From a virus: a DNA stretch of 20,218 bases. The translations under genes were made by a program, and so were the position numbers. Shown one piece after another: positions 2,605 to 14,131 of the stretch (position 1 is the first letter of the stretch; each line of letters opens with the position of its first letter). The stretch is from the IMG/VR virus record IMGVR_UViG_3300029319_000678, positions 1-20,218 of that record; one strand, written 5' to 3'. The notes beneath the pieces are model-generated. The model was not told the origin of the DNA. It searched no databases and was given only the letters and a program-made list of their open reading frames with translations.

Positions 2605-2620
2605 GGAGGTTCTCCTTATG
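2600..2620 (+). promoter_or_regulatory. Perfect hairpin holding stop, Shine-Dalgarno and start codon
   Basis: Bases 2600-2608 (CATAAGGAG) and 2612-2620 (CTCCTTATG) are perfect reverse complements around a 3-base GTT loop. The 5' arm contains the TAA stop of the upstream gene and most of the Shine-Dalgarno (GGAGG at 2605-2609). The 3' arm ends in the ATG of the 2618 gene. When folded, the site would hide both the ribosome-binding site and the start codon. A ribosome finishing the upstream gene would melt it, giving strict translational coupling. The pairing is directly visible; the regulatory effect is inferred. It could also work as a transcript-stabilising hairpin, but there is no U-tract to make it a terminator. 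Confidence 0.7.
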
Positions 2621-3625
2621 GCAAACACTTGGAATCAATCAGGAACAACCTGGGGCACAGGTCGTTGGGGAACGACTGAAGCTTTTACAAGTGGTTGGGG
2701 TGTTGATGCATGGAATACAGGTGGATCGTGGGGAAAAGCTACTGACGAAGTAGTACAACTAACTGGTCAAGCCATAACTATATCTTTAGGAGATCCTATA
2801 TCAGGGGCAAATCAAGGTTGGGGTAGAGCAGCATGGGGTGAGGAACCATGGAGTGAAAGTAATAACCCAGTAGTTACATTATCAAGTCAATTAATTACAT
2901 CATCAGTTGGAACAGCTTCAGCTTTTAATGAACAAGGTTGGGGTAGAGATACTTGGAACTTTGAGTCATGGGGCTTTAGTGGTTTAACAATAGAGTTAAG
3001 TGGTCAATCAATTACATCAAATTTAGGTGCTAACGGTTGGAGTAATGCATCTTATGGTGACAATGGTTGGGGTATGTTTACTCTAAATCCCGCAGATGTA
3101 GTGGGAGTAACTGGACAAGCAATAACATCAGCGGTACCAGTTCAATTAGATATACCAGAACAAATTCAAGGCATTTCTATAACTAGCTCAGTAGGATCAA
3201 TATCACCTGCAGATGTAGTTGGATTATCTGGTCAATCAATAAATTCTTCAGTGGGTTCTATTTCACCTGCAGATGTAGTTGGATTATCTGGTCAATCAAT
3301 AACTAGCTCTAATGGAACGATCAATGTAACAACTGCACAACTTGTGAACGTTAGTGGTGTAGCAATAACATCAGCCGTAGGATCAATAAGTCCAGATGAT
3401 ATGTCAGTAGGATTATCTGGTCTTTCAAGAACTTTATCTGTGGGTTCAATAACACCTGCAGATGTAGTAGGATTAACAGGGCAACAAATAACGTCCTCTG
3501 TTGCAGGATTTGGTGTATCAACAGGGTTTGGAATACAAGCATATCAAGATGTTGACACGGGATCAAATATTTCGTATTCTAATGTTGCAACAGGTTCAAA
3601 TATAACATATAGTGACGTCGCATAG
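2618..3625 (+). CDS. Trp/Gly-rich repeat virion protein, probable tail fibre or adhesin
   Basis: This 335-residue protein has two interleaved repeat types. The first half has WG-type motifs (GTGRWG, QGWGRAAWGEEPW, QGWGRDTWNFESWG, DNGWGMF), giving 14 Trp in residues 1-151 and none after. From about residue 47 to 310 there are ten copies of a unit like GLSGQSITSSVG, often followed by SISPADVV, with about 20-residue spacing in the second half. Alternating hydroxyl and hydrophobic residues suggest a beta-solenoid or a shaft of short beta-strands. The family resembles proteins seen in fibre modules of marine phages, and the neighbours are a fibre and a glycine-rich adhesin. No catalytic motif is visible. 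Translation is probably coupled to the upstream gene through the hairpin at its start. The stop TAG is fused to the next Shine-Dalgarno (TAGGAG). Virion location is likely; receptor binding is inferred. Confidence 0.65.
   Translation: MANTWNQSGTTWGTGRWGTTEAFTSGWGVDAWNTGGSWGKATDEVVQLTGQAITISLGDPISGANQGWGRAAWGEEPWSESNNPVVTLSSQLITSSVGTASAFNEQGWGRDTWNFESWGFSGLTIELSGQSITSNLGANGWSNASYGDNGWGMFTLNPADVVGVTGQAITSAVPVQLDIPEQIQGISITSSVGSISPADVVGLSGQSINSSVGSISPADVVGLSGQSITSSNGTINVTTAQLVNVSGVAITSAVGSISPDDMSVGLSGLSRTLSVGSITPADVVGLTGQQITSSVAGFGVSTGFGIQAYQDVDTGSNISYSNVATGSNITYSDVA
3203..3302 (+). repeat. Exact 40-bp direct repeat at 60-bp period within the repeat protein gene
   Basis: Bases 3203-3242 and 3263-3302 are identical over 40 bp and are offset by exactly 60 bp, which is one 20-residue protein unit (SPADVVGLSGQSI...). 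A third, diverged copy of the core (CACCTGCAGATGTAGT) begins at 3453, and a further diverged one lies near 3089. The DNA-level identity of two neighbouring units while the others have drifted suggests a recent unit duplication. Such repeats allow gain or loss of in-frame units by recombination or slippage. Confidence 0.8.
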
Positions 3626-3634
3626 GAGAAAATT

Positions 3635-5014
3635 ATGGCATCAACATTCACGGGATTAGGTGTAGAACTTCAAGCAACTGGTGAAAATGCTGGTACATGG
3701 GGTACGAAAACTAATACAAATTTACAACTTTTAGAACAAATAGTAGGTGGATTTACACAACAGTCAATTGCTGGTGGTGCACAAACAACTGCTTTAACTG
3801 TAAATGATGGATCAACTGGTGCTACTCTTGCACACAGAATGATAGAATTTACAGGTACAATCTCAGGCAATCAGATTGTAACTATACCAAATGATGTTCA
3901 AACTTTTTATTTTTTAAGAAACTCAACTTCTGGGTCACATACTGTACAATTTAAATACGCTACAGGATCAGGGGATAGTTTTACTTTCACAGCTACTGAT
4001 AAGGGCGATCAATTAGTATTCGCTTCTGCTAATGATGGTTCAAATCCTGACATTATTACTTTAGCCTTTGGTGATGGTGACGTAACACTTACAGGGACAC
4101 AAACTTTAACAAATAAAACATTAACTTCACCTGCGATAGGGACAGCCATTTTAGATACTAACGGTGCTGAATCAATTAAATTTACAGCTACAAGTTCTGC
4201 AACTAATGAATTTACAGTGACAAACGCAGCTAATGGTAGTGCTCCAACTCTTTCAGCAACAGGAAGTAGTGACTCTAACGTAAATATTAATTTTGCACCA
4301 AAAGGAACAGGTGAAATCGTTATTGGTACAGGAGCTGCAAATGCTACTCTAACAACAAGTGGTGCTCACGATCTTATATTAGATACAAATTCAGGCACGA
4401 ACTCAGGTTCAATTACAATCACAGATGGTGCGGATGGTAATATTAACATTGCACCAAATGGAAATGGTGTTGTTCAAGCTGGTGGATCAGCAGTAAAAGT
4501 AGCTGGTAAAGAAACCATGTACGTGCCAGCTCAAGCCATGTATGCTGCAACTACAAATGGTGCAGCGGCTGGTCAAGCAGAATTAACAGCTGGGAACCCA
4601 GAGTTAAAAACTTTTGATTTTGATGCATCAACAGCAGAATCAGTACAGTTTAACGTATGTTTTCCAAAATCTTGGAATGAGGGAACTATCACATATCAAA
4701 CTTTTTGGTCGGCATCTGGAACAAATACAGGCACAGGTGGATACAAATTATCTGGTGTATCAATAGGAGACAACGTCGACTATGATACAGCTTTTGGAAC
4801 AGCGGTTGCTAATACAGCTAAAGCAGCTAGTGGAACTCAAGATGATTTAATGATTAACGATGAAAGTGGTGCTGTAACAATTGCAAGTGCTGCAGCAGAC
4901 ACAAACACAGTTTTTAAACTAGAAAGAAATGTTGCAACAGATACAAATACTGGAGATTTAAGGTTAGTTGGAATTAAATTATTCTTCACTACTGATGCAG
5001 CAAACGATGCATAG
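3635..5014 (+). CDS. Tail fibre-like virion protein
   Basis: This 459-residue protein has its ATG 6 bases after a TAGGAG Shine-Dalgarno. It has an N-terminal segment (FTGLGVELQATGENAGTWGT, then KTNTNLQLLEQIVGG) that in phage fibres usually attaches to the tail. This is followed by long Thr/Ser/Gly/Asn-rich beta repeats. The motif LTGTQTLTNKTLTSP at about residues 151-165 is a widespread phage tail-fibre shaft signature. Further down are INFAPKGTGEIVIG and INIAPNGNGVVQAGG, two related beta-helix-like units. The C-terminal 160 residues form a more globular beta domain (ETMYVPAQAMYAA to the end), which could be a capsid-distal tip. It lacks signal peptide, chaperone-cleavage and lyase motifs. 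Fibre function is well supported by motif and neighbours; the receptor is unknown. Confidence 0.8.
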   Translation: MASTFTGLGVELQATGENAGTWGTKTNTNLQLLEQIVGGFTQQSIAGGAQTTALTVNDGSTGATLAHRMIEFTGTISGNQIVTIPNDVQTFYFLRNSTSGSHTVQFKYATGSGDSFTFTATDKGDQLVFASANDGSNPDIITLAFGDGDVTLTGTQTLTNKTLTSPAIGTAILDTNGAESIKFTATSSATNEFTVTNAANGSAPTLSATGSSDSNVNINFAPKGTGEIVIGTGAANATLTTSGAHDLILDTNSGTNSGSITITDGADGNINIAPNGNGVVQAGGSAVKVAGKETMYVPAQAMYAATTNGAAAGQAELTAGNPELKTFDFDASTAESVQFNVCFPKSWNEGTITYQTFWSASGTNTGTGGYKLSGVSIGDNVDYDTAFGTAVANTAKAASGTQDDLMINDESGAVTIASAAADTNTVFKLERNVATDTNTGDLRLVGIKLFFTTDAANDA

Positions 5015-5026
5015 GAGGAATAAGAG

Positions 5027-5893
5027 ATGTTTGGATATCAAGTTTTAGGATTCGGAGCTGGTGGTAGAGAACCTACTGTTGAAGCAACAGGTGGAAATAC
5101 CATAACTGATAATGGAGATTTTAAAGTCCACACTTTTACATCACCTGGTCAAATTACTTTTAGTAAAATACCTGCTACTGCTTCTGTAGAATATTTACTT
5201 GTCGCTGGAGGCGGCGGAGGTGCAGATGGCGGGGGGGACGCAGGCGCGGGTGGCGCGGGCGGACTTGTTGAGGGTTCTTCAACAAATTTTACAGCTGCAT
5301 CTTTTGCAATAGCTGTTGGATCTGGTGGAGCTGGAAGAGGAAATCCACAAAACAATCAAGGTGGTAGTTCAGGTGGTCAAACTACTTTTGATATATCTCC
5401 TACGACAGGAACACAAATGACCGCTCAAGGAGGTGGAGCGGGAGGTCCCTTCCCTGGTGGGGGAGGCTCAGGCGGCTCAGGCGGAGGAGGCTCAAGAAGC
5501 ACCTCAGGTGGGTCGGGAACTCAAGGTAATCAAGGACAAGGTCAAGGTTTTGGAAATAATGGTATGGGTTCAGGAATGTTTCACCACTCTGGAGGAGGTG
5601 GTGGCGCCGGCGGGGCAGGAATGCAATCTGCGGGCGGTGTAGGAAGACAAAATGATATCACAGGATCACAAGTATTTTATGCCGGAGGCGGTGGCGGATC
5701 ACGACAATCAGGTCCCTCTGTTAATGTTCAAGGTGGACAAGGAGGCGGAGGTCAAGGAAGCCCAGGAGGTGGGCTATGTACGTCTGGCACTGATGGCTTA
5801 GGTGGAGGCGGAGGAGGGTCGTCTGACTCACCTCAACCTGGAAATGGAGGATCTGGAGTTGTAATTGTAACTTACGATCAATTTGCATCATAA
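5027..5893 (+). CDS. Glycine-rich tail adhesin-like protein
   Basis: This 288-residue protein is preceded by TAGGAGGAA (stop of the upstream gene fused to the Shine-Dalgarno). Residues 1-65 form a beta domain with FKVHTFTSPGQITF and then VEYLLVAGGGGGADGG, the hallmark of glycine-rich-domain phage proteins. Most of the remainder is polyglycine with Ser/Gln/Ala, ending in a short GNGGSGVVIVTYDQFAS strand. Gly-rich loops of this kind form the receptor-binding tips of T4-like gp38 adhesins, where polyglycine helices pack together. Here that is an analogy by composition. The polyglycine codons make local islands of high GC, including a G7 run at 5231-5237, in an otherwise AT-rich genome. It lies directly after the fibre gene, as expected for a fibre tip or adhesin. 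The stop overlaps the next start (TAATG). Confidence 0.75.
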   Translation: MFGYQVLGFGAGGREPTVEATGGNTITDNGDFKVHTFTSPGQITFSKIPATASVEYLLVAGGGGGADGGGDAGAGGAGGLVEGSSTNFTAASFAIAVGSGGAGRGNPQNNQGGSSGGQTTFDISPTTGTQMTAQGGGAGGPFPGGGGSGGSGGGGSRSTSGGSGTQGNQGQGQGFGNNGMGSGMFHHSGGGGGAGGAGMQSAGGVGRQNDITGSQVFYAGGGGGSRQSGPSVNVQGGQGGGGQGSPGGGLCTSGTDGLGGGGGGSSDSPQPGNGGSGVVIVTYDQFAS

Positions 5894-6288
5894 TGAAAAC
5901 TTTAGCTAAAATGGATGGAAACACAGTAGTCAATATAGAGGCTATTGATGAGTGGAGATGCACTAACGATAATGGTCAAATTGATGAATCAGTTGCTAAA
6001 AATCATTTAATCAAAACAGGAGCTAATCCTGACGAATACATTTTATATATGCCAGATATACATATAAATGCCCCAGAGATTGGTGGCACTTACGACAGTG
6101 TTAATAATAAATTTATAAATAAAAAACCTCATTCTTCTTGGGAATTAAATACAACTAATTGGTTATGGCAACCAGTAGGTGGTTGGCCTGCAGATTCAAA
6201 ACATAATGGTGGCACAAAAGCATATTTTTGGAACACAGAAACTGAATCAATAGAACCTGTAATAGACGGCGAACCCGAAGAAGAATAA
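5893..6288 (+). CDS. Small fibre-associated phage protein
   Basis: This 131-residue protein starts within the previous stop (TAATG). The central and C-terminal pattern (IGGTYDSVNNKFINKKPHSS, then WELNTTNWLWQPVGGWPAD, then YFWNTETESIEPV) matches a small protein found beside tail-fibre genes in many cyanophages and pelagiphages. In those proteins a GxxYD..N..FI..KP..SW.L....W.W..P..YP motif is conserved. No function is established to my knowledge; a fibre component or fibre-assembly factor fits the position. The C-terminus is strongly acidic (GEPEEE). It is the last gene before the halogenase-oxygenase cassette and has a 50-base gap after it, large for this window, which contains the promoter described separately. 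Confidence 0.7.
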   Translation: MKTLAKMDGNTVVNIEAIDEWRCTNDNGQIDESVAKNHLIKTGANPDEYILYMPDIHINAPEIGGTYDSVNNKFINKKPHSSWELNTTNWLWQPVGGWPADSKHNGGTKAYFWNTETESIEPVIDGEPEEE

Positions 6289-6338: not shown

Positions 6339-7850
6339 ATGAACTTAGTAGATTTAGATAAAATTCTAGTTATTGGCGGTGGAAGTGCTGGTTTAATATC
6401 TGCCCTGATGCTAAAAAAAACTTTTGTTACAAAAGCAGTTTCCATAATTAAATCTGAAAAATTAGGTATCATAGGAGTTGGAGAAAGCACCACGGAACAC
6501 ATGGCTAGGTTCATGAAACACATTGGTATATCTAGAGAGGACTTAATTAAACATTGTGGGGCAACATTAAAAGCGGGAGTGTTCTTTCAAGGTTTTGGTA
6601 AAGATGATTTTATGCATTCTATTTCTCCTCCGTATGCTAATACACACAATGCATATTATTACATATATGGTCAATTAATTGGGTATAAAAAAAGAAAGTA
6701 TAATCTTTATCCTGAATTTTTTAATTATTCTGAAATGCCTGTTGAAGCTTTAGAAAATGAAAATTGGATATATCAATATCATTTAAATACTTTTAAGTTT
6801 AATGAGTATTTATTAAAACTTTGTACAGAGAGAGGTATTGAAATAATAGATGATGATTTGCAAGAAGAGGACATTATTTTAAATGATAATGGAGATGTAG
6901 AAAAAATAATAGGAAGAAATCCTGTAGATAAAAATTTAACCAGAGAACATAAAGCTGATTTATATATAGATTGCACGGGTTTTAAAAGATTATTAGCTAA
7001 TAAATTAAAATTTAAATGGGTATCTTACAAAGAGTATCTACCTTTAAACTCTGCGGTTGCATTTCCTACAGAAGAAACCAGTGAATATAATTTATATACT
7101 TTAGCAAAAGCTATGAAACACGGTTGGCTTTGGAGAATACCAACTCAAACTAGAACAGGTAATGGTTATGTATTTAACAAAGATTTTGCATCTCTTGATG
7201 ATATAAGAAAAGAAATTAATTCTACGTATAACAAAGAAATAGAAATACAAAGATCTTTTGAATTTGAGCCAGGTTATTACGAAGAAATGTGGAAAAATAA
7301 TGTTGTAGTGGCAGGTTTAGCTAGTAGTTTTATAGAGCCTTTAGAAGCTACTTCTATAGGCAGCACTATTCAACAAATGTTTATATTAATGCATTTTTTA
7401 CCGTCAGAGGATAAGGTTAGTAACAATAAACAATATCACTATTTAATGGAAAATATATTTAGTTTTGTTTCACTGCATTACAAACTTCAACGAGAAGATA
7501 CTCCTTTTTGGAAACACGTAAAAAATTTAAAAACCACTGATTTTTTAAAACACTATCTTCCAATATGGAAAAACAGATTACCCCAAGACTCAGATTTTAA
7601 TGGAAGCTGGAATATGTTTTATGCACCTAATTTTATAAATGTTTTGTTTGGTCTTGATTTATTTGATTTAAAAAAGATAGTAAAAGAAGCTAGATTATAT
7701 CCATTTGTATTAAGAGCAAATGCAACTAAAATATTTAGAAATCAAAGAAACTGGGAAAAAAATTGTCTCAAAATATCACATAAAAAATTTATTGATATGA
7801 TTTATAAAAATAAACCTAAAAATTTAGAGGAAGAAAATGTCATCTATTAA
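6339..7850 (+). CDS. Flavin-dependent (tryptophan-type) halogenase
   Basis: This is a 503-residue protein from the ATG at 6339. A TTG at 6330 adds three residues but lies at the predicted transcription start. Family enzymes use FADH2 from a separate reductase, O2 and halide to make hypohalous acid, which halogenates an aromatic substrate through an active-site lysine. All hallmarks are present: FAD-binding GGGSAG at residues 13-18, GVGEST at about 46-51, the putative catalytic Lys78 in ATLKAGVFF, DCTGF at about 211-215, WLWRIP at 263-268 (the WxWxIP signature) and SFIEPLEATSIG at about 330-341 with the active-site Glu336. These match the PrnA positions (K79, W272-P277, E346) closely. A halogenase of cyanophage Syn10 (VirX1) is the precedent in phages; its substrates are not tryptophan, so the substrate here is open. 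No flavin reductase is in the window; the host or another phage gene must supply it. Confidence 0.93.
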   Translation: MNLVDLDKILVIGGGSAGLISALMLKKTFVTKAVSIIKSEKLGIIGVGESTTEHMARFMKHIGISREDLIKHCGATLKAGVFFQGFGKDDFMHSISPPYANTHNAYYYIYGQLIGYKKRKYNLYPEFFNYSEMPVEALENENWIYQYHLNTFKFNEYLLKLCTERGIEIIDDDLQEEDIILNDNGDVEKIIGRNPVDKNLTREHKADLYIDCTGFKRLLANKLKFKWVSYKEYLPLNSAVAFPTEETSEYNLYTLAKAMKHGWLWRIPTQTRTGNGYVFNKDFASLDDIRKEINSTYNKEIEIQRSFEFEPGYYEEMWKNNVVVAGLASSFIEPLEATSIGSTIQQMFILMHFLPSEDKVSNNKQYHYLMENIFSFVSLHYKLQREDTPFWKHVKNLKTTDFLKHYLPIWKNRLPQDSDFNGSWNMFYAPNFINVLFGLDLFDLKKIVKEARLYPFVLRANATKIFRNQRNWEKNCLKISHKKFIDMIYKNKPKNLEEENVIY

Positions 7851-8520
7851 ACACCCTGGGGATGCATGTTTATATGATCCAGTAAATCATGAAAAACAAA
7901 TGGCAACTCATGTTCCAAATTTTGGACTTTTATCAGGTAAAATGCCTGACGATCTTTTTTCAAAAGTAGTAGAAGAAGTTAACACTATTTATTCTGATTT
8001 TAACAATTCTAGATTTTATGGACATAAATTAGCTGGTAATATGAAAAACGAATATGGACTAGATAAATGTAAAAAAGATCTTGAAAAGTTTATGATTAAT
8101 CAAGCAGTTGAGTATGACAAAGCTTTTGATTATGGACGTCAAATTATAATAGCAGATAAGGATATGCCTTATATGATGAAAGATCTTTGGGTTAATTTTC
8201 AAGCTAAGCATGAATTTAATCCTTTTCACACACACTCAGGTATATATAGTTTTGTTTTATTTGTAAATATACCCTACACTGAAGAAGATATAAATAAATC
8301 TCCAGGGGCTAAATCAAATAGTAATTGTGCTGGTGCATTAACATTTTATTATACTGATATTCTTGGAGGCATGAGGGACTTTACTTATAAAGCTACTAAA
8401 AAAGATGAACAATCTTTTATTTTTTTTCCTGCTAAGCTGCCTCATTGTGTTCATCCTTTTTATGACACAGATAAATATAGAATTACTATATCTGGAAATA
8501 TAATTTATAAAAATGATTAA
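7837..8520 (+). CDS. Putative Fe(II)/2OG oxygenase 1 (HxH type)
   Basis: This 227-residue protein overlaps the end of the halogenase by 14 bases and has no Shine-Dalgarno, so it is probably translated by re-initiation. The oxygenase-like core is in the C-terminal half. It has DLWVNFQAKHEFNPFHTHSG with His131 and His133, a strand IYSFVLFVNIPY, then SFIFFPAKLPHCVHPF with distal His203 (or His206), and RITISGN with Arg215 as the likely 2-oxoglutarate anchor. NPxHxHSG and FPAxLPHxVxPF are patterns I associate with cyanophage 2OG-Fe(II) oxygenases. The usual HxD carboxylate ligand is replaced by HxH, so iron binding needs confirmation. Family enzymes hydroxylate or otherwise oxidise C-H bonds using O2 and 2-oxoglutarate. 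The N-terminal 110 residues are of unknown function. Confidence 0.7.
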   Translation: MSSIKHPGDACLYDPVNHEKQMATHVPNFGLLSGKMPDDLFSKVVEEVNTIYSDFNNSRFYGHKLAGNMKNEYGLDKCKKDLEKFMINQAVEYDKAFDYGRQIIIADKDMPYMMKDLWVNFQAKHEFNPFHTHSGIYSFVLFVNIPYTEEDINKSPGAKSNSNCAGALTFYYTDILGGMRDFTYKATKKDEQSFIFFPAKLPHCVHPFYDTDKYRITISGNIIYKND

Positions 8521-9085
8521 TCTTTTTAGTAAGGTAGTAGGTGTTTATAAAAATTTAAAACATTCTAACGTACAAGAATTTTTAGTTAATAGATGTTTAA
8601 ATATAAAAGAAAACGTGGCTACAAATAAAAACGGTTGGCTTAGTAAAGACATATATACCACACATAATAAACACGACATCACATTAGATTCAGAATTTAA
8701 ATCTTTAAATGAATGGGTTGATTATAGCATAATAAATTATTGTAATGATTTATCATATTCTAACAAAATAAAAGTAAAAGAAGGATGGTTTAATATTTAC
8801 AATAAAGGTGACTTTCAAGAATGTCATGAACATGCTAATTCTCATTTAAGTTGTATTTATTGTCTTAAAGGTGATGAGGGTTCTTCTAGAATTTTTTTTA
8901 AAAAAACAATAAGTATGTTTCCAATACCAGTGAAAGAGTACACGGAAACTAATTGTGAATATCATTGGGTTCCATTTGTTCCAGGAACTTTATATGTGTT
9001 TGAAAGTGCTCTTACCCATTATGTAGAAAAACATAATTTAAATACTGCTAGATATAGTTTAGCATACAATTTTATTTTACAATGA
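8513..9085 (+). CDS. Putative Fe(II)/2OG oxygenase 2 (HxH type)
   Basis: This 190-residue protein overlaps the previous gene by 8 bases. The core begins with EGWFNIYNKGDFQECHEHAN (His105, Glu106, His107), followed by SHLSCIYCLKGDEGSSRIFF, and ends with FVPGTLYVFESALTHYVEKH (His169) and NTARYSLAYNF (Arg180). The order is a W-N strand, HxH, G-rich turn, PG-LYVF, distal His, and Arg 11 residues later. It is that of the PF13759-type 2OG-Fe(II) oxygenases. No substrate can be named. It differs clearly in sequence from its neighbours, so it is not a simple recent tandem duplicate. The N-terminal 85 residues are mostly helical, as is usual in the family. It is a tailoring-enzyme candidate in the halogenase operon. 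Confidence 0.72.
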   Translation: MINLFSKVVGVYKNLKHSNVQEFLVNRCLNIKENVATNKNGWLSKDIYTTHNKHDITLDSEFKSLNEWVDYSIINYCNDLSYSNKIKVKEGWFNIYNKGDFQECHEHANSHLSCIYCLKGDEGSSRIFFKKTISMFPIPVKEYTETNCEYHWVPFVPGTLYVFESALTHYVEKHNLNTARYSLAYNFILQ

Positions 9086-9624
9086 ATCAAAAAATATTTA
9101 TAGATGATCAAAATAATATTAAAGTAGTTCAAAATTTTTTATCTAAACCCTATTTTGAAGATTTACAAAAAATACTTATGGGTTATCATATGCCATGGTT
9201 TTTTAATGAAAATAGTCTAACAGATGTAAATGATAACAGTTTTTTATTTACGCATGCAATTTTTTATAAAGAACACGGTTGGGTAGGAACTGAACTTATT
9301 AATAATATAATTAGACCCATGTTGTGGAATATTAAAGAACATTTGAATTATAGCACAGTATCTAGAATAAAAGCTAATTTAACCACTAATCAAAACAAAC
9401 AAGTTGTACACCCTACTCATCGTGATTGGAAAGGCACAGACGAAGATAAATATAAAATAGCAGTATTTCATGTTAACACATGTAATGGGTTTACAAAAGT
9501 AAAGGATAAAAAAATAGAAAATGTAGAAAATCAGTTAGTCATTTTTAATAATGTTGAACATTGTTATGCTACAGCAACTGATTGCTCATCAAGAGTAGTA
9601 ATTAATTTTAATTTTATTGTATGA
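9082..9624 (+). CDS. Putative Fe(II)/2OG oxygenase 3 (HxD type)
   Basis: This 180-residue protein starts in an ATGA overlap. It has a canonical facial triad: His113 and Asp115 in HPTHRDWKG, distal His160 in VIFNNVEHCYAT, and Arg171 in SSRVVINFNF, 11 residues after the distal His. Between them lies the strand YKIAVFHVNTCNGFTKV. This short form, with VENQLVIFNN before the distal His, is common in T4-like cyanophage oxygenases. The complete triad makes it a good candidate for an active dioxygenase, more so than the HxH neighbours. Substrate unknown. The N-terminal region (IKVVQNFLSKPYFEDLQKIL) resembles the entry helix of this group. Confidence 0.78.
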   Translation: MNQKIFIDDQNNIKVVQNFLSKPYFEDLQKILMGYHMPWFFNENSLTDVNDNSFLFTHAIFYKEHGWVGTELINNIIRPMLWNIKEHLNYSTVSRIKANLTTNQNKQVVHPTHRDWKGTDEDKYKIAVFHVNTCNGFTKVKDKKIENVENQLVIFNNVEHCYATATDCSSRVVINFNFIV

Positions 9625-10202
9625 AAATAATGTCTTCAGAAGAAACTGTGAAATGGGAAATATCGGGCACGATACACAAAGTTTTAATTGACGATGAAGA
9701 ACTTTTACAAAAATTAGAAAATAAAATAAGATATAACATCGACGATAAAATTTCTTATGAAACAAATGTAAAAGGAAGAATGACACATTGGGATACATTT
9801 AAAAAAGATGATACTTTTAAAAAGATGATATCTAAGTTTTTTCATACATGTTCTTATTATGGATTATTTCAAGGAGCAAAATCAAAAGATAATTTATTTC
9901 ATTTTTTTATTAATAATGCTTGGGGCAACATTTTAAAAAAAGAAGAAAAGGTTGTTAGACATCATCACTTGGGTGTAGATTATGCGAGTGTTTTATATTT
10001 TGATGACTATTCTCCCCTTTGCACAGATGCTGGAAAAATAGAAACTAAAAGAGGTTTGGTAGTGACGATACCTTCATATTTATATCATTGGGTAGAGCCA
10101 TTAGATAAAGATATTGAAAGATGCACAATAGCTTGGAATTGGTCGTTTACTAAAAAATGGGATTTGCCACATGTTCAACATCAAGAGGAAATTTTAAAAT
10201 AA
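9621..10202 (+). CDS. Putative Fe(II)/2OG oxygenase 4 (HHH type)
   Basis: This 193-residue protein starts in an ATGA overlap. Its core has NNAWGNILKKEEKVVRHHHL with His114-116, the strand YASVLYFDDYSPL, then GLVVTIPSYLYHWVEPLDK with distal His156 and RCTIAWNWSF with Arg167, 11 residues later. The layout is that of the PF13759-like 2OG oxygenases, with an HHH stretch where HxD would be. Which residues bind iron is not obvious. The N-terminal half (residues 1-95) is Lys/Asp/Glu-rich and helical with no recognised domain. The stop overlaps the next start by one base (TAATG). It is the fourth oxygenase-like member of the operon; function inferred from the pattern only. Confidence 0.62.
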   Translation: MKIMSSEETVKWEISGTIHKVLIDDEELLQKLENKIRYNIDDKISYETNVKGRMTHWDTFKKDDTFKKMISKFFHTCSYYGLFQGAKSKDNLFHFFINNAWGNILKKEEKVVRHHHLGVDYASVLYFDDYSPLCTDAGKIETKRGLVVTIPSYLYHWVEPLDKDIERCTIAWNWSFTKKWDLPHVQHQEEILK

Positions 10203-10804
10203 TGCAACATATAAATATACCAGTAGTTTTTAAAAAAGCTTTTTCAAAAGATTTTTGTCAAAAAATAATAGACATACAAAAAAATACATCTTTCAAAAAA
10301 GGAACAGTGTCAGAGGCTAACAATGTTAATTTTAATATACGAGACTCTAATATTATTTTTACTGATGAACAATGGATTTACGATGCAGTGGTGCCTTGGT
10401 TTGAAAAAGCAAATAAAGACGGAAAATATAACTTTAAATTAGATTGGTATGAAGCTGCACAAGTTACTAAGTATGATAAAAATGGTTTTTATGGATGGCA
10501 TCAAGATGAACATAGCATAGTTTATCCTAACGATCACCATAACGTTAATTTTAGAAACAAAATTAGAAAATTATCCTGTAGTGTGTTGTTGTCTGAACCA
10601 AATACTTATGAAGGCGGTGATTTTGATTTTGCAATTCCTATGGCTAAACACGCTAATTTAATGTATAAAAAAATAACTTTAAAATCTTTAGAAGTTGGAA
10701 CAATGATTGTTTTTCCATCTTTTACATTACATAGAGTAAATCCAGTAACAAAAGGAACTAGATATTCTTTAGTAGTGTGGGCACTAGGACCTACGTATGA
10801 TTAA
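10202..10804 (+). CDS. Fe(II)/2OG oxygenase 5, prolyl-4-hydroxylase/PKHD-like
   Basis: This 200-residue protein starts at the ATG overlapping the previous stop. An upstream in-frame ATG at 10157 would overlap the previous gene by 46 bases and adds residues unlike the family, so it is not used. This is the clearest oxygenase in the cassette. YGWHQDEHS gives His100 and Asp102, FPSFTLHRVNPV gives His177, and GTRYSLVVWALGP gives Arg187, exactly 10 residues after the distal His. YEGGDFDF before them is the typical GG-D-F strand of prolyl-4-hydroxylase-like (P4Hc, PF13640-type) enzymes such as the PKHD (PiuC/YbiX) group. The fold usually hydroxylates proline, other amino-acid side chains or small molecules. 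A peptide or protein substrate is possible but unproven. Confidence 0.85.
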   Translation: MQHINIPVVFKKAFSKDFCQKIIDIQKNTSFKKGTVSEANNVNFNIRDSNIIFTDEQWIYDAVVPWFEKANKDGKYNFKLDWYEAAQVTKYDKNGFYGWHQDEHSIVYPNDHHNVNFRNKIRKLSCSVLLSEPNTYEGGDFDFAIPMAKHANLMYKKITLKSLEVGTMIVFPSFTLHRVNPVTKGTRYSLVVWALGPTYD

Positions 10805-11321
10805 AAAAATTATAAATTTTTTAAATAGAGACGAAATAAAAATTTTGTCACAATATTGGAAATTTAATAAAAAAAATATGATTGATTGCGATCAATCAAT
10901 AGGCTCACTGAAAAAATATGGAGATCCTATAAGTGAATCTATTTTATTAATTAAAAAAACGCTTTTAGAAGAAGTAGTAGGTGAACCATTACTACCTACA
11001 TGTTCATTTAGTAGAATGTATTTTAATGGAACAGAATTAATTAAACATAGTGATAGACCATCTTGTGAAGTTTCTGTAACTTTAAATATTTATGCAGATA
11101 AAGATTGGAAAATATTTTTTTGTCCTAAAAATTCAGATAAACAACCTTTGAGTTTAATTACTGAACCTGGAGAAGGTTTATTATACGAAGGTATGAAATA
11201 TGATCATTGGAGAGAGAAGTACGAAGGTCAAGAATGCATGCAAGTTTTTTTACACTATGTTAGAAAAAATGGACCTTATAAATCTTTTTATAAAGATGGG
11301 AGACCTAGCATTGGATATTAA
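10797..11321 (+). CDS. Putative Fe(II)/2OG oxygenase 6 (HxDR type, Arg anchor altered)
   Basis: This 174-residue protein overlaps the previous gene by 8 bases. The core is FSRMYFNGTELIKHSDRPSC with His84, Asp86 and Arg87, then VSVTLNIYADKDWKIFF, then GEGLLYEGMKYDHWREKYEG with distal His137 and CMQVFLHYV. This matches a cyanophage oxygenase group in which H(S/T)DRPSCE and EHWRE..F....VFLHYV recur. The residue aligned with the usual 2OG-binding Arg (10 after the distal His) is Cys147, so Arg87, Arg139 or Lys141 would have to bind the co-substrate. The iron triad (H, D, H) is complete. It ends with a charged tail (KSFYKDGRPSIGY). Oxygenase identity is likely; the co-substrate site is unusual compared with the textbook family. 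Confidence 0.75.
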   Translation: MIKKIINFLNRDEIKILSQYWKFNKKNMIDCDQSIGSLKKYGDPISESILLIKKTLLEEVVGEPLLPTCSFSRMYFNGTELIKHSDRPSCEVSVTLNIYADKDWKIFFCPKNSDKQPLSLITEPGEGLLYEGMKYDHWREKYEGQECMQVFLHYVRKNGPYKSFYKDGRPSIGY

Positions 11322-11880
11322 TAAATTATCCGTATTTCCAAGTTTAATTTTACAAGTATCTAAATATATTAATGAAACCGAGTGTAATCAAATATACCAA
11401 AAACTTCTTGAAGAAGATACACATACCCATGAGGCTTTTGCCCCTCTAAAAGATAAAGCTAAATCCTCACATAAAATAGACTCTGACATATTAAAAAAAG
11501 TAAAAATAAATTTTAAAAATATTTTAAATCAATACAGTGAGCTCACAGGTTTTACTTTTAAAAATGAAATAACAAATTCTTGGTTTAACATTCAACAAAA
11601 GGATAGTGTTTTAAAAGATCACACTCATCCTTTGACTGTGGTTGCAGGTGTTTTATTTATTAACGTTGATGATAAAGCCAGCCCCATTTATTTCCAAAAT
11701 CCAAATCCACATATTAATTATACGGCTATAGAAAAAAATACTCCATATTCATTTGAATGGGTGAAATGCATTCCTAAAAAAGGCGATTTATATCTATTTC
11801 CTGGGTGGTTGAAACACGGCTCATTTAATGATAAAAATATGTGTGAAAATAGAACGGTTATAAGTTTTAACGCCATTTAG
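11296..11880 (+). CDS. Putative Fe(II)/2OG oxygenase 7th cassette gene (HxH type)
   Basis: This is the seventh gene of the cassette and its sixth oxygenase-like protein, 194 residues from the ATG at 11296. That start overlaps the previous gene by 26 bases. An earlier ATG at 11200 would overlap it by 122 bases and is less likely. The core has NSWFNIQQKDSVLKDHTHPL with His109 and His111, then VVAGVLFINVDDKASPIYF with an NPNP turn, then GDLYLFPGWLKHGSF with distal His174 and RTVISFN with Arg186, 12 residues later. The arrangement (N-x-W-F-N, HxH, S/A-G-V-L strand, PNP, FPGWLxH, R-T/S-SFN) is the signature of PF13759/TIGR02466-type 2OG-Fe(II) oxygenases. Such proteins are frequent in cyanophages; substrates are mostly unknown. 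It is the last gene before the structural genes resume. Confidence 0.75.
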   Translation: MGDLALDINKLSVFPSLILQVSKYINETECNQIYQKLLEEDTHTHEAFAPLKDKAKSSHKIDSDILKKVKINFKNILNQYSELTGFTFKNEITNSWFNIQQKDSVLKDHTHPLTVVAGVLFINVDDKASPIYFQNPNPHINYTAIEKNTPYSFEWVKCIPKKGDLYLFPGWLKHGSFNDKNMCENRTVISFNAI

Positions 11881-11923: not shown

Positions 11924-14131
11924 ATGCTACAAAAAATAGGATTTCAGCCAGGAATTAATAAACAAATTTCAGAAACCACAGCAGAGGGTCAGTGGGTCGA
12001 CTGTGATAATGTTAGATTTAGATACGGATCTCCTGAAAAAATAGGGGGATGGAATCAATTAGGCACTATAAATGAAAACGAGCTAACAGGGGCTGGACGT
12101 GGTCTTCATCACTTTGTTAATAGTTTAGGTAGAAGATATGCCATAATTGGCACAAACAGAATTTTATATGCTTTTTCTGGGGGTGTGTTTTATGACATAC
12201 ACCCTATTAAAACTACAACAACTCTTACAAGTGCTTTTAGCACGACCAACGGATCACCAACTGTTACAATAACTTTTCCAACAGGTCACGGGATTAATCC
12301 ACAAGATATTATTTTATTAGACAATTTTACTACAATTACAGGATCTAACTTTAGTGCATCAGATTTTAACGATAAAAAATTTATGGTAACCACTGTCCCA
12401 ACAACAGAAACGTTAACAATTACGATGCCATCAAATGAAACAGGATCTGGCGCGACAACGTCTGGTGGTATTAGAGTACAACATTATTTTCCGGTTGGAT
12501 CTGCTGTTCAAGAAAAAGGATTCGGTTGGGGTCTTGGATCTTGGGGTGGAGAAGCCTCTAACCCAGTAACAACCACTTTGAATGGAGCATTATTAGATGA
12601 TGCTAATGGTACAGGTGGATCTGGAACATCAATCGTTTTAGCGGATGCTACACAGTTTCCAAGCTCTGGTACAAATTTTATTCAAGTGGGTAATGAAGAG
12701 ATATCTTACACTGGAGTTACAGGTGGCACTACATTAACTGGCATTACAAGAGCTGTAAGAGGCTCAACTAGATCAGGACATAGTGATGGTGCTTCAGTTA
12801 AAAATAGCACAGATTATGTTGCTTGGGGTGAGGCAGCATCTGGTGACTTAGTTTTAGAACCAGGTATGTGGTCATTAGATAATTTTGGTGATAAAGCTAT
12901 TTGTTTAATTCACGATAGTTCTGTATTTGAATGGGATTCTTCTTTATCAAATGCAACAGAAACAAGGTGTAATATTATATCTGGAGCACCAACTGCATCT
13001 AGACACATGGTTGTATCAACACCAGATCGTCACTTAGTTTTTTATGGAACAGAAACAACTATTGGAGATGTTACGACACAAGATGACATGTTTATTAGAT
13101 TCTCGGATCAAGAGGATATAAATACGTATACACCTACAGCAACCAATACAGCTGGTACACAAAGACTGGCTGATGGATCACAGATTAGAGGAGCTATCAG
13201 AGGTAGAGATGCAATCTATGTTTGGACTGATACGGCATTATTTACACAACGTTTTGTTGGATCACCTTTTACATTTGCCTTTTCACAAGTAGGAACTAAC
13301 TGTGGATTAGCAGGTCAGAATGCATGTGTAGAAGTTGATGGTGCTGCGTATTGGATGTCAGAGAATGGTTTTTTTAGATATGCAGGTAAATTAGAATCAC
13401 TACCGTGTTTAGTTGAAGACTTTGTGTTTGATGACATAAATATGGAATCAGGTAATCAAATGATTTCAGCAGGATTAAATAATTTGTTTGGTGAAGTTAT
13501 ATGGTTTTATCCACAAGCTACATCTAGTGTTGTTAATAGAATGGTTACATTTAATTATTTTGATTCATCACCACAAAGACCAGTTTGGACTGTCGGTAGT
13601 TTATCTAGAACAATGTGGCAAGACTCGGCGGTATTTAGTAAACCACGTGCTTTAGAGTATGATGCATCAAATGATTCATCTCATGACGTCGTTGGAAACA
13701 CTGAGGGTAGAACAAGTTACTATGAACATGAAACAGGAACTGATCAAAATAGAAATGGAACGATAACAGCTATAACTGCTAACATACTATCTGGAGATTT
13801 TGATATAACACAAAGAATAGTAGGTAATCAAATGACAGGGATAGCGGATACTAGAGGAGATGGTGAATTTATAATGAAGATAAGAAGATTTATACCAGAT
13901 TTTATATCTCAAACAGGTAACACTAGAATTACTTTAAATTTAAGAAATTTTCCAAACGACACTGCTGCTAGCTCCTCTTTAGGTCCTTTTGATGTAACTA
14001 CATCAACACAAAAAATAGATACTAGGGCAAGAGCTAGAGCCATAGCATTAAAAGTAGAAAATACATCAACCAGTCAAAACTGGAAGTTGGGCACTTTTAG
14101 ATTAGACATACAACCAGATGGAAGAAGATAA
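11924..14131 (+). CDS. Large tail nozzle/tubular-like virion protein
   Basis: This 735-residue protein has an AAAGG Shine-Dalgarno. The N-terminus (QPGINKQISETTAEGQWVDC, then DNVRFRYGSPEKIGGW) and a following beta-propeller-like stretch (RYAIIGTNRILYAFSGGVFYD) recur in marine podovirus-type phages at a tail nozzle position. By analogy they compare with P22 gp10 or T7 gp12, which close the tail below the adaptor. About residues 215-300 are a beta-rich insert (LADATQFPSSGTNFIQVGNE, then YTGVTGGTTLTGITRAVRGS), a unit seen in several phage structural proteins. The middle and C-terminal thirds keep the alternating beta pattern (AYWMSENGFFRYAGKLESLP, then TRARARAIALKVENTS near the end). It has no enzyme motif. 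Structural role is well supported; nozzle identity is inferred. Confidence 0.65.
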   Translation: MLQKIGFQPGINKQISETTAEGQWVDCDNVRFRYGSPEKIGGWNQLGTINENELTGAGRGLHHFVNSLGRRYAIIGTNRILYAFSGGVFYDIHPIKTTTTLTSAFSTTNGSPTVTITFPTGHGINPQDIILLDNFTTITGSNFSASDFNDKKFMVTTVPTTETLTITMPSNETGSGATTSGGIRVQHYFPVGSAVQEKGFGWGLGSWGGEASNPVTTTLNGALLDDANGTGGSGTSIVLADATQFPSSGTNFIQVGNEEISYTGVTGGTTLTGITRAVRGSTRSGHSDGASVKNSTDYVAWGEAASGDLVLEPGMWSLDNFGDKAICLIHDSSVFEWDSSLSNATETRCNIISGAPTASRHMVVSTPDRHLVFYGTETTIGDVTTQDDMFIRFSDQEDINTYTPTATNTAGTQRLADGSQIRGAIRGRDAIYVWTDTALFTQRFVGSPFTFAFSQVGTNCGLAGQNACVEVDGAAYWMSENGFFRYAGKLESLPCLVEDFVFDDINMESGNQMISAGLNNLFGEVIWFYPQATSSVVNRMVTFNYFDSSPQRPVWTVGSLSRTMWQDSAVFSKPRALEYDASNDSSHDVVGNTEGRTSYYEHETGTDQNRNGTITAITANILSGDFDITQRIVGNQMTGIADTRGDGEFIMKIRRFIPDFISQTGNTRITLNLRNFPNDTAASSSLGPFDVTTSTQKIDTRARARAIALKVENTSTSQNWKLGTFRLDIQPDGRR

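Follow-up and report, generated by a model that had tools for sequence, protein, structure and literature searches.

Phage halogenases and Fe(II)/2-oxoglutarate (2OG) oxygenases abound in ocean viruses; the literature that we found treats them as metabolic genes or as biocatalysts, without a native substrate. Jumbo cyanophages such as S-SSM6a carry a predicted 10-gene cluster of halogenase, 2OG, cupin and carbamoyltransferase genes, for which metabolite or capsule chemistry has been proposed (PMC7824862). Phages of the HTVC023P type have eight non-orthologous 2OG genes, with no halogenase mentioned (Wittmers 2022, PMC9599517), and arrays of 2OG genes are reported from the cyanophages S-CREM1 (10 genes, PMC9964418) and S-SCSM1 (24 genes, PMC9602691). 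Here we analyze a block of one halogenase gene and seven oxygenase-type genes in the viral record IMGVR_UViG_3300029319_000678 (positions 1 to 20,218; this whole stretch is referred to as the window), and we show that the content of such blocks, or islands, is inherited together with an adjoining glycine-rich tail-tip gene. A first-pass annotation of the window was aware of no phage system of this composition; the related sets in the four reports above and in Pelagibacter phage HTVC008M speak against that statement. The predicted jumbo-cyanophage clusters and the multi-2OG sets of HTVC023P-type phages were already on record, and what is new is a testable reading of what such islands do, namely modification of the tail tip. 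Our literature search, which left most subscription journals outside its reach, found no link between these enzymes and tail tips.

Like the jumbo-cyanophage cluster, the window combines a halogenase and several 2OG or cupin enzymes of the double-stranded beta-helix fold in one cluster, but it lacks the carbamoyltransferase, HemK-like methylase and HAD phosphatase; carbamoyltransferases do occur in some other islands. The HTVC023P-type sets share with the window the phage group, several distinct 2OG genes and the same 'ferrochelatase' family, whereas their published account takes the ferrochelatase at face value and makes no connection to the tail tip. HTVC008M has several 2OG genes, a phrog_2954 gene and a 2OG-halogenase pair among structural genes; unlike the window, it is a T4-like myovirus, its genes form two groups, and no Gly-rich neighbor was found nearby. 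S-CREM1 and S-SCSM1 resemble the window in their many diverged PF13759/PF13640 genes, and in S-CREM1 a PF21722 protein and a halogenase precede eight genes with a 2OG or JmjC annotation, but both are cyanobacterial myoviruses whose 2OG genes are described as metabolic.

The genes of the block, with their motif residues, and three neighbors are as follows (aa, amino acids; ORF, open reading frame):

HAL, 6339..7850, + strand: predicted class A flavin-dependent (tryptophan-type) halogenase, 503 aa; PF04820, phrog_2928
OX1, 7837..8520, + strand: PF13759 2OG-Fe(II) oxygenase-type, phrog_81; H131-x-H133..H203..R215
OX2, 8513..9085, + strand: PF13759 2OG-Fe(II) oxygenase-type, phrog_81; H105-x-H107..H169..R180
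OX3, 9082..9624, + strand: phrog_274, predicted 2OG oxygenase fold; H113-x-D115..H160..R171
OX4, 9621..10202, + strand: PF13759 2OG-Fe(II) oxygenase-type, phrog_81; H114-x-H116..H156..R167
OX5, 10202..10804, + strand: PF13640 / phrog_61, PKHD/PiuC-like 2OG oxygenase; H100-x-D102..H177..R187
OX6, 10797..11321, + strand: phrog_2954, predicted 2OG oxygenase fold; H84-x-D86..H137
OX7, about 11296..11880, + strand: PF13759 / phrog_81 oxygenase-type, H-x-H..H..R; ORF opens at 11200
Tail-tip/adhesin-like protein, 5027..5893, + strand: Gly_rich_2 (PF21722, E 2e-18), phrog_2295, 34% Gly
131-aa protein, 5893..6288, + strand: phrog_7759; co-travels with the tip and island
Virion structural protein g735, 11924..14131, + strand: phrog_3287, backbone anchor downstream of the island

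The ORF list gives positions 6339-11880 as eight consecutive same-strand ORFs, all overlapping, with zero intergenic bases. The first-pass annotation had recognized this tight packing and a halogenase bearing every expected motif, both rightly, but it counted six oxygenase-like genes where there are seven in the same interval. The Gly-rich tail-type protein and its 131-aa follower flank the block on one side and the phrog_3287 virion protein on the other, and profile searches identify the surrounding genes of the window as phage structural genes on the + strand. G+C content falls to 26-30% across the block. A scan for promoters and terminators found nothing above the level of shuffled sequence.

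HAL matches PF04820 with 298.8 bits (E 9.5e-89; cut-off 21 bits) and phrog_2928 with E 6e-106. All of its motifs are intact: GxGxxG (G13/G15/G18), the catalytic K78, WxWxIP at W263-P268 (W263/W265/I267/P268) and E336, and these residues are conserved in 10 phage homologues and in about 167 alignment rows. Profile matches to the PDB were E 2e-91 for PyrH-type tryptophan 5-halogenases and E 1e-67 for the cyanophage halogenase VirX1, so that HAL is by profile closer to the former. We classify HAL from these matches as a class A flavin-dependent halogenase, with predicted halogenating activity.

Five of the oxygenase-type proteins were placed by family profiles. OX1, OX2, OX4 and OX7 all exceed the Pfam cut-off for PF13759, and OX5 exceeds that for PF13640 and matches PiuC in the PDB (E 2e-6). 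OX3 matches phrog_274 (E 4e-33) but stays below the Pfam threshold, while OX6 matches phrog_2954 (E 3e-48) with no significant Pfam match. Because a sequence search of the PDB gave no convincing match for either of these two, we predicted their structures, a check that the first-pass annotation had proposed, and both came out as double-stranded beta-helix 2OG folds. The AlphaFold2 model of OX3 (predicted local distance difference test, pLDDT, 94.7) matched PHD/P4H in Foldseek (E 2e-7) and aligned to 6n1f with VIA Z 16.7 and a root-mean-square deviation (rmsd) of 2.7 over 168 aligned residues. For OX6 (pLDDT 95) the Foldseek match was P4H/PHD2 (E 1.5e-7), and the alignment to PiuC 9qn4 had VIA Z 17.3 and rmsd 3.0 with 154 aligned. 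The best structural matches of both are mostly protein hydroxylases, and the models allow us to assign OX3 and OX6 confidently to a prolyl-hydroxylase-like 2OG double-stranded beta-helix fold.

The canonical HxD/E...H triad is present in OX3 (H113/D115/H160), OX5 (H100/D102/H177) and OX6 (H84/D86/H137). It is absent from OX1, OX2, OX4 and OX7, which have an invariant HxH...H...R instead. The same HxH pattern occurs in the solved PF13759-like PDB entry 3bvc, and the PF13759 membership of these four proteins therefore stands; OX2 also has weak PDB similarity to 3bvc/2rg4. The HxH...H...R pattern possibly denotes a three-His iron site or altered chemistry. By fold or by family profile, then, OX1-OX7 belong to the Fe(II)/2OG oxygenase superfamily, and we predict catalysis on that basis. 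Identity between pairs of the oxygenases is mostly undetectable and otherwise below 30%, which rules out recent tandem duplication.

Two of these families carry database names that the models contradict. Phrog_274, the family of OX3, is labelled 'DNA endonuclease V' in PHROGs. The DenV-type fold is helical. The OX3 model is a 2OG beta-helix with HxD..H..R and no DenV-type fold, so we reject this identity for OX3; judging by the model, the label also covers a 2OG oxygenase family. Phrog_2954, the family of OX6, is labelled 'ferrochelatase' and has relatives in at least 156 phage records. OX6 has no ferrochelatase Pfam match at E<=1, ferrochelatases are absent among the fold matches listed for it, and it is modelled as a 2OG fold in which HxD...H is intact; we therefore reject OX6 as a ferrochelatase and take the phage 'ferrochelatase' to be a misnamed 2OG oxygenase. 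Published accounts have treated this gene, found beside 2OG genes, as a ferrochelatase and discussed the pair in terms of iron-linked or seasonal metabolism (PMC9599517, PMC11561400). Such ferrochelatase and iron interpretations of marine phages thus rest on misannotation, and their place is taken by one more recurrent 2OG-type family.

The gene order HAL-OX1..OX6 and its position are kept in five other viral contigs (L001-L005) at 53-90% identity, with the genes unbroken; the first-pass annotation had proposed such a comparison with relatives. The last slot is variable: OX7 is absent from L001, L002 and L005, and an OX2-type gene stands in its place in L003 and L004. Pairwise ratios of nonsynonymous to synonymous substitution (dN/dS) are 0.12-0.35 for HAL and OX1-OX6, with no stops, indicating purifying selection. 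E-values far under threshold, the conserved order and the low dN/dS together confirm that the gene block is real and not due to chance; the last two rule out degraded or chance ORFs. The earlier suggestion of a dedicated pathway holds to the extent that an intact, order-conserved halogenase and distinct 2OG oxygenases resemble one module.

We collected about 240 loci by profile scans with HAL, OX6 and OX3 and annotated them with iterated hidden Markov models; in this query-biased sample, halogenases often lie inside 2OG clusters. Some islands of other marine phages are larger, and as many as five halogenases that have diverged from one another (25-48% identity) share a stretch of about 15 kb with 10-13 oxygenases. 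L112, L114, L109, L140 and L107 (about 2-18 kb) are single islands with four to five diverged flavin halogenases and 10-13 oxygenases, and where the contig reaches the flank they adjoin up to three tandem Gly-rich tail proteins; L112 also has a GroEL gene alongside. In 141 of 142 cases the G+C content of the island is below that of its flanks (29.5 versus 37.4%), a gap that is partly due to the G+C-rich genes for Gly-rich proteins in the flanks. Other island genes encode sulfotransferases, APS kinases, Nol-type carbamoyltransferases, methyltransferases, JmjC and DUF6445 proteins. A two-halogenase island in L173 includes sulfotransferase and APS-kinase-like genes (4334-5469), which hints at sulfation of hydroxylated residues. 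No scaffold-building enzyme was found in the window cassette or among the 25 commonest unassigned families inside islands, in keeping with a set of tailoring enzymes whose macromolecular substrate is produced elsewhere.

A second sample consisted of 31 loci drawn by the backbone protein g735. At least two oxygenase genes were present in 29 of these, OX5 in 29, OX6 in 27 and HAL in 6. The multi-2OG islands of HTVC023P-type loci occupy the same site, between the tail-tip and phrog_3287 genes, and the window g735 is 45-48% identical to those of HTVC023P, HTVC027P and 023Pt_psg01. From its structural block with phrog_3287 and 2OG genes, on a 20-kb fragment without PolA or primase genes, we assign the window phage as a relative of HTVC023P-type pelagiphages. 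Among bacterial relatives of HAL, 74 of 80 loci have none of these oxygenase families nearby, so a bacterial origin of the combination is rejected and the combination is phage-side. The exception, L331 (Verrucomicrobia contig NHDJ01000130.1, 13 kb, assigned to a bacterial bin), carries two halogenases along with five 2OG-type genes; it looks like a phage contig in a metagenome-assembled genome.

The islands are associated with the Gly-rich tail tip. Of the 60 cases having both flanks, 53 have a Gly-rich ORF no more than 4 kb from the island, and in a non-redundant set such ORFs make up 31% of ORFs at 0.3-1 kb from the island compared with 0 of 139 at 4-8 kb. With a cut-off of 25% Gly, the neighbor is present in 24 of 28 g735 loci with both flanks, and the association is weaker elsewhere (3/10). 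All neighbors tested (window, L112, L148, L168, L173, L240 and L117) belong to PF21722 Gly_rich_2, and that of L148 additionally matches the Mtd_N tropism-determinant domain below threshold. PF21722 neighbors span pelagiphages, multi-halogenase contigs and the cultured cyanophages Syn10, S-RIM44 and S-CREM1.

In the g735-drawn sample, islands are larger where the tip is present (5.1 versus 2.6 oxygenase genes, p 0.0018). Every island with at least five oxygenase genes has the tip (13/13), and none of the nine tip-less loci reaches five. Presence of g335, g459, g142 or g234 showed no relation to island size; the 131-aa gene was the one other structural neighbor that did. Mantel tests over 63 loci gave the same picture. 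Island content correlates with tip similarity (r 0.40, 0/500 permutations; partial correlation 0.40 controlling for g735) and with similarity of the 131-aa protein (r 0.37, 0/500 permutations), and there is no correlation with g735, g459 or g335 (r -0.06 to 0.04). Both signals persist once similar islands are dropped. Individual loci illustrate the pattern: L003 resembles the window in island (0.60) and tip (0.76) though its backbone has diverged (0.65), while L254-L261 have a backbone similarity of about 0.9 but island values of only 0.10-0.15 and tip values of 0.1-0.3. The 131-aa protein was also considered as a Tfa-type chaperone and rejected, since it does not resemble the tail-fibre assembly protein of L112.

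The source phage of VirX1 has the same arrangement. The VirX1 protein of Syn10 (CPUG_00131) matched PDB 6qgm over its full length (1271 bits). In Syn10 (L410, 103017-126591), two PF21722 proteins and one further Gly-rich protein are followed by VirX1 and a second halogenase, and downstream of this pair comes a run of overlapping genes, at least eight of them recognizable as 2OG genes, including an OX6-type gene. The S-RIM44 and S-CREM1 loci have the same design, and the tips of all three phages contain His-rich loops. Like the window, then, Syn10 has a marine-phage class A flavin halogenase in a multi-2OG island beside a PF21722 tip, although VirX1 is only distantly similar to HAL, comes from a different phage type and has been studied as a biocatalyst. 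The literature searched, which excluded the primary VirX1 paper, contained no statement on its native substrate or genomic context.

We propose that the island post-translationally modifies the phage's own Gly-rich tail-tip adhesin, a reading that we place near the midpoint between true and false. The virion-protein option had been one of three substrates named in the first-pass annotation, and tip co-inheritance and position now favor it. The eight genes would constitute a tailoring island of one FADH2-dependent halogenase and seven Fe(II)/2OG oxygenases, situated among late structural genes and probably expressed with them. Its substrate would be the PF21722 protein (5027-5893), and the 131-aa protein (5893-6288) may serve as a partner or chaperone. 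The enzymes would each have their own site or type of residue, the reactions being hydroxylation and the halogenation of electron-rich side chains (His, Tyr or Trp). With a different set of enzymes the receptor-binding loops would differ chemically, which may in turn alter host recognition or particle durability. Halogenated histidine and tyrosine occur in nature, and the marine peptide styelin D is brominated and multiply hydroxylated (PMC8659048); the active site of VirX1 is unusually large and accessible (PMC8407142).

The His content of the tip offers a lead only: it is higher beside halogenase-bearing islands in podoviruses (1.12 versus 0.69%, p 0.013) and in another phage group (2.24 versus 0.65%, p 0.004), where the values are uncorrected and chosen post hoc and the second is confounded by lineage. 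The His content of other ORFs is unchanged by halogenase presence. The Trp-rich g335 (2618-3625), a structural protein with N-terminal Trp-Gly repeats, was considered as the halogenase substrate and is not favored: W-rich ORFs are not clearly commoner at halogenase loci (15/28 versus 29/67 others), and g335 similarity is unrelated to island content.

Several observations weigh against tip modification. The His signal is small as well as post hoc, uncorrected and, in one of its two groups, lineage-confounded. Tip and island could travel together because both lie in one recombination block, with no action of the one on the other, and a nearby Gly-rich gene is lacking in HTVC008M and at some other islands. 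Clusters with carbamoyltransferase and sugar enzymes also fit glycan or metabolite chemistry. Finally, alignments of Gly-rich proteins are of low complexity, though the 131-aa protein agrees with them.

Among other explanations, the island might make or decorate a small molecule or a capsular or lipopolysaccharide glycan, such as a halogenated, hydroxylated secondary metabolite, to the benefit of the infected cell. This is the proposal made for the jumbo-cyanophage cluster of halogenase, 2OG, cupin and carbamoyltransferase genes (PMC7824862), and the carbamoyltransferases, sulfotransferase and APS kinase of some islands agree with it, as do the sugar-biosynthesis genes of S-SCSM2R several kb from its halogenase. 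We nevertheless consider it unlikely, given the lack of a scaffold-building enzyme in the window cassette and the commonest island families, the dependence of island content on tail tip rather than backbone, and the recurrence of islands beside tail-tip genes in several phage lineages.

The enzymes might instead act late on a host surface protein or the envelope (a receptor or outer-membrane protein), blocking superinfection or shielding progeny. Co-inheritance with a receptor-binding tip would also be expected if they acted on the receptor of that tip; moreover, PiuC, a relative of OX5, is named as an iron-uptake factor, and halogenases of the same family exist in bacteria. Set against this are the position of the island within the late structural gene block and the bacterial halogenase loci without these oxygenase families (74/80), and we find the idea improbable.

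We give a poor chance to independent auxiliary metabolic genes gathered at a recombination hotspot, with 2OG oxygenases lowering host 2-oxoglutarate, as proposed for cyanophages (PMC3037559), and the halogenase making free chlorotryptophan, following the PrnA-type chlorination of free tryptophan that has been proposed (PMC9964418). Such genes would account for variable island content and low G+C (29.5 versus 37.4%), but seven diverged enzymes (mostly below 30% identity) with conserved active-site residues would be needless for lowering one metabolite, and the conserved HAL-OX1..6 order and a co-variation specific to the tail tip also count against this reading. Passive linkage, in which tip, 131-aa gene and island form one exchange block while the enzymes really act on some other protein of the virion or host, is very improbable: the three are contiguous and breakpoints at their borders would yield the same Mantel signal, but g735, immediately downstream at about 40 bp, shows no coupling (r 0.04), islands are larger where the tip is present, and the tip-island pairing recurs in cyanophages of different genome layout.

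More tentatively, marine phages may in general diversify their receptor-binding tips chemically, by means of an exchangeable module of a Gly-rich tip with matching halogenases, hydroxylases and sometimes sulfo- or carbamoyltransferases. The side chains of the virion adhesin would then be halogenated and hydroxylated, the enzyme content would alter host recognition in addition to the sequence, and the native substrate of VirX1 would be the His-rich tip protein adjoining it. Co-inheritance and position turn the question of the native substrate into a testable claim about the tail tip in phages that are already cultured, including the source of VirX1, and host-range prediction for these abundant viruses may need to take post-translational chemistry into account.

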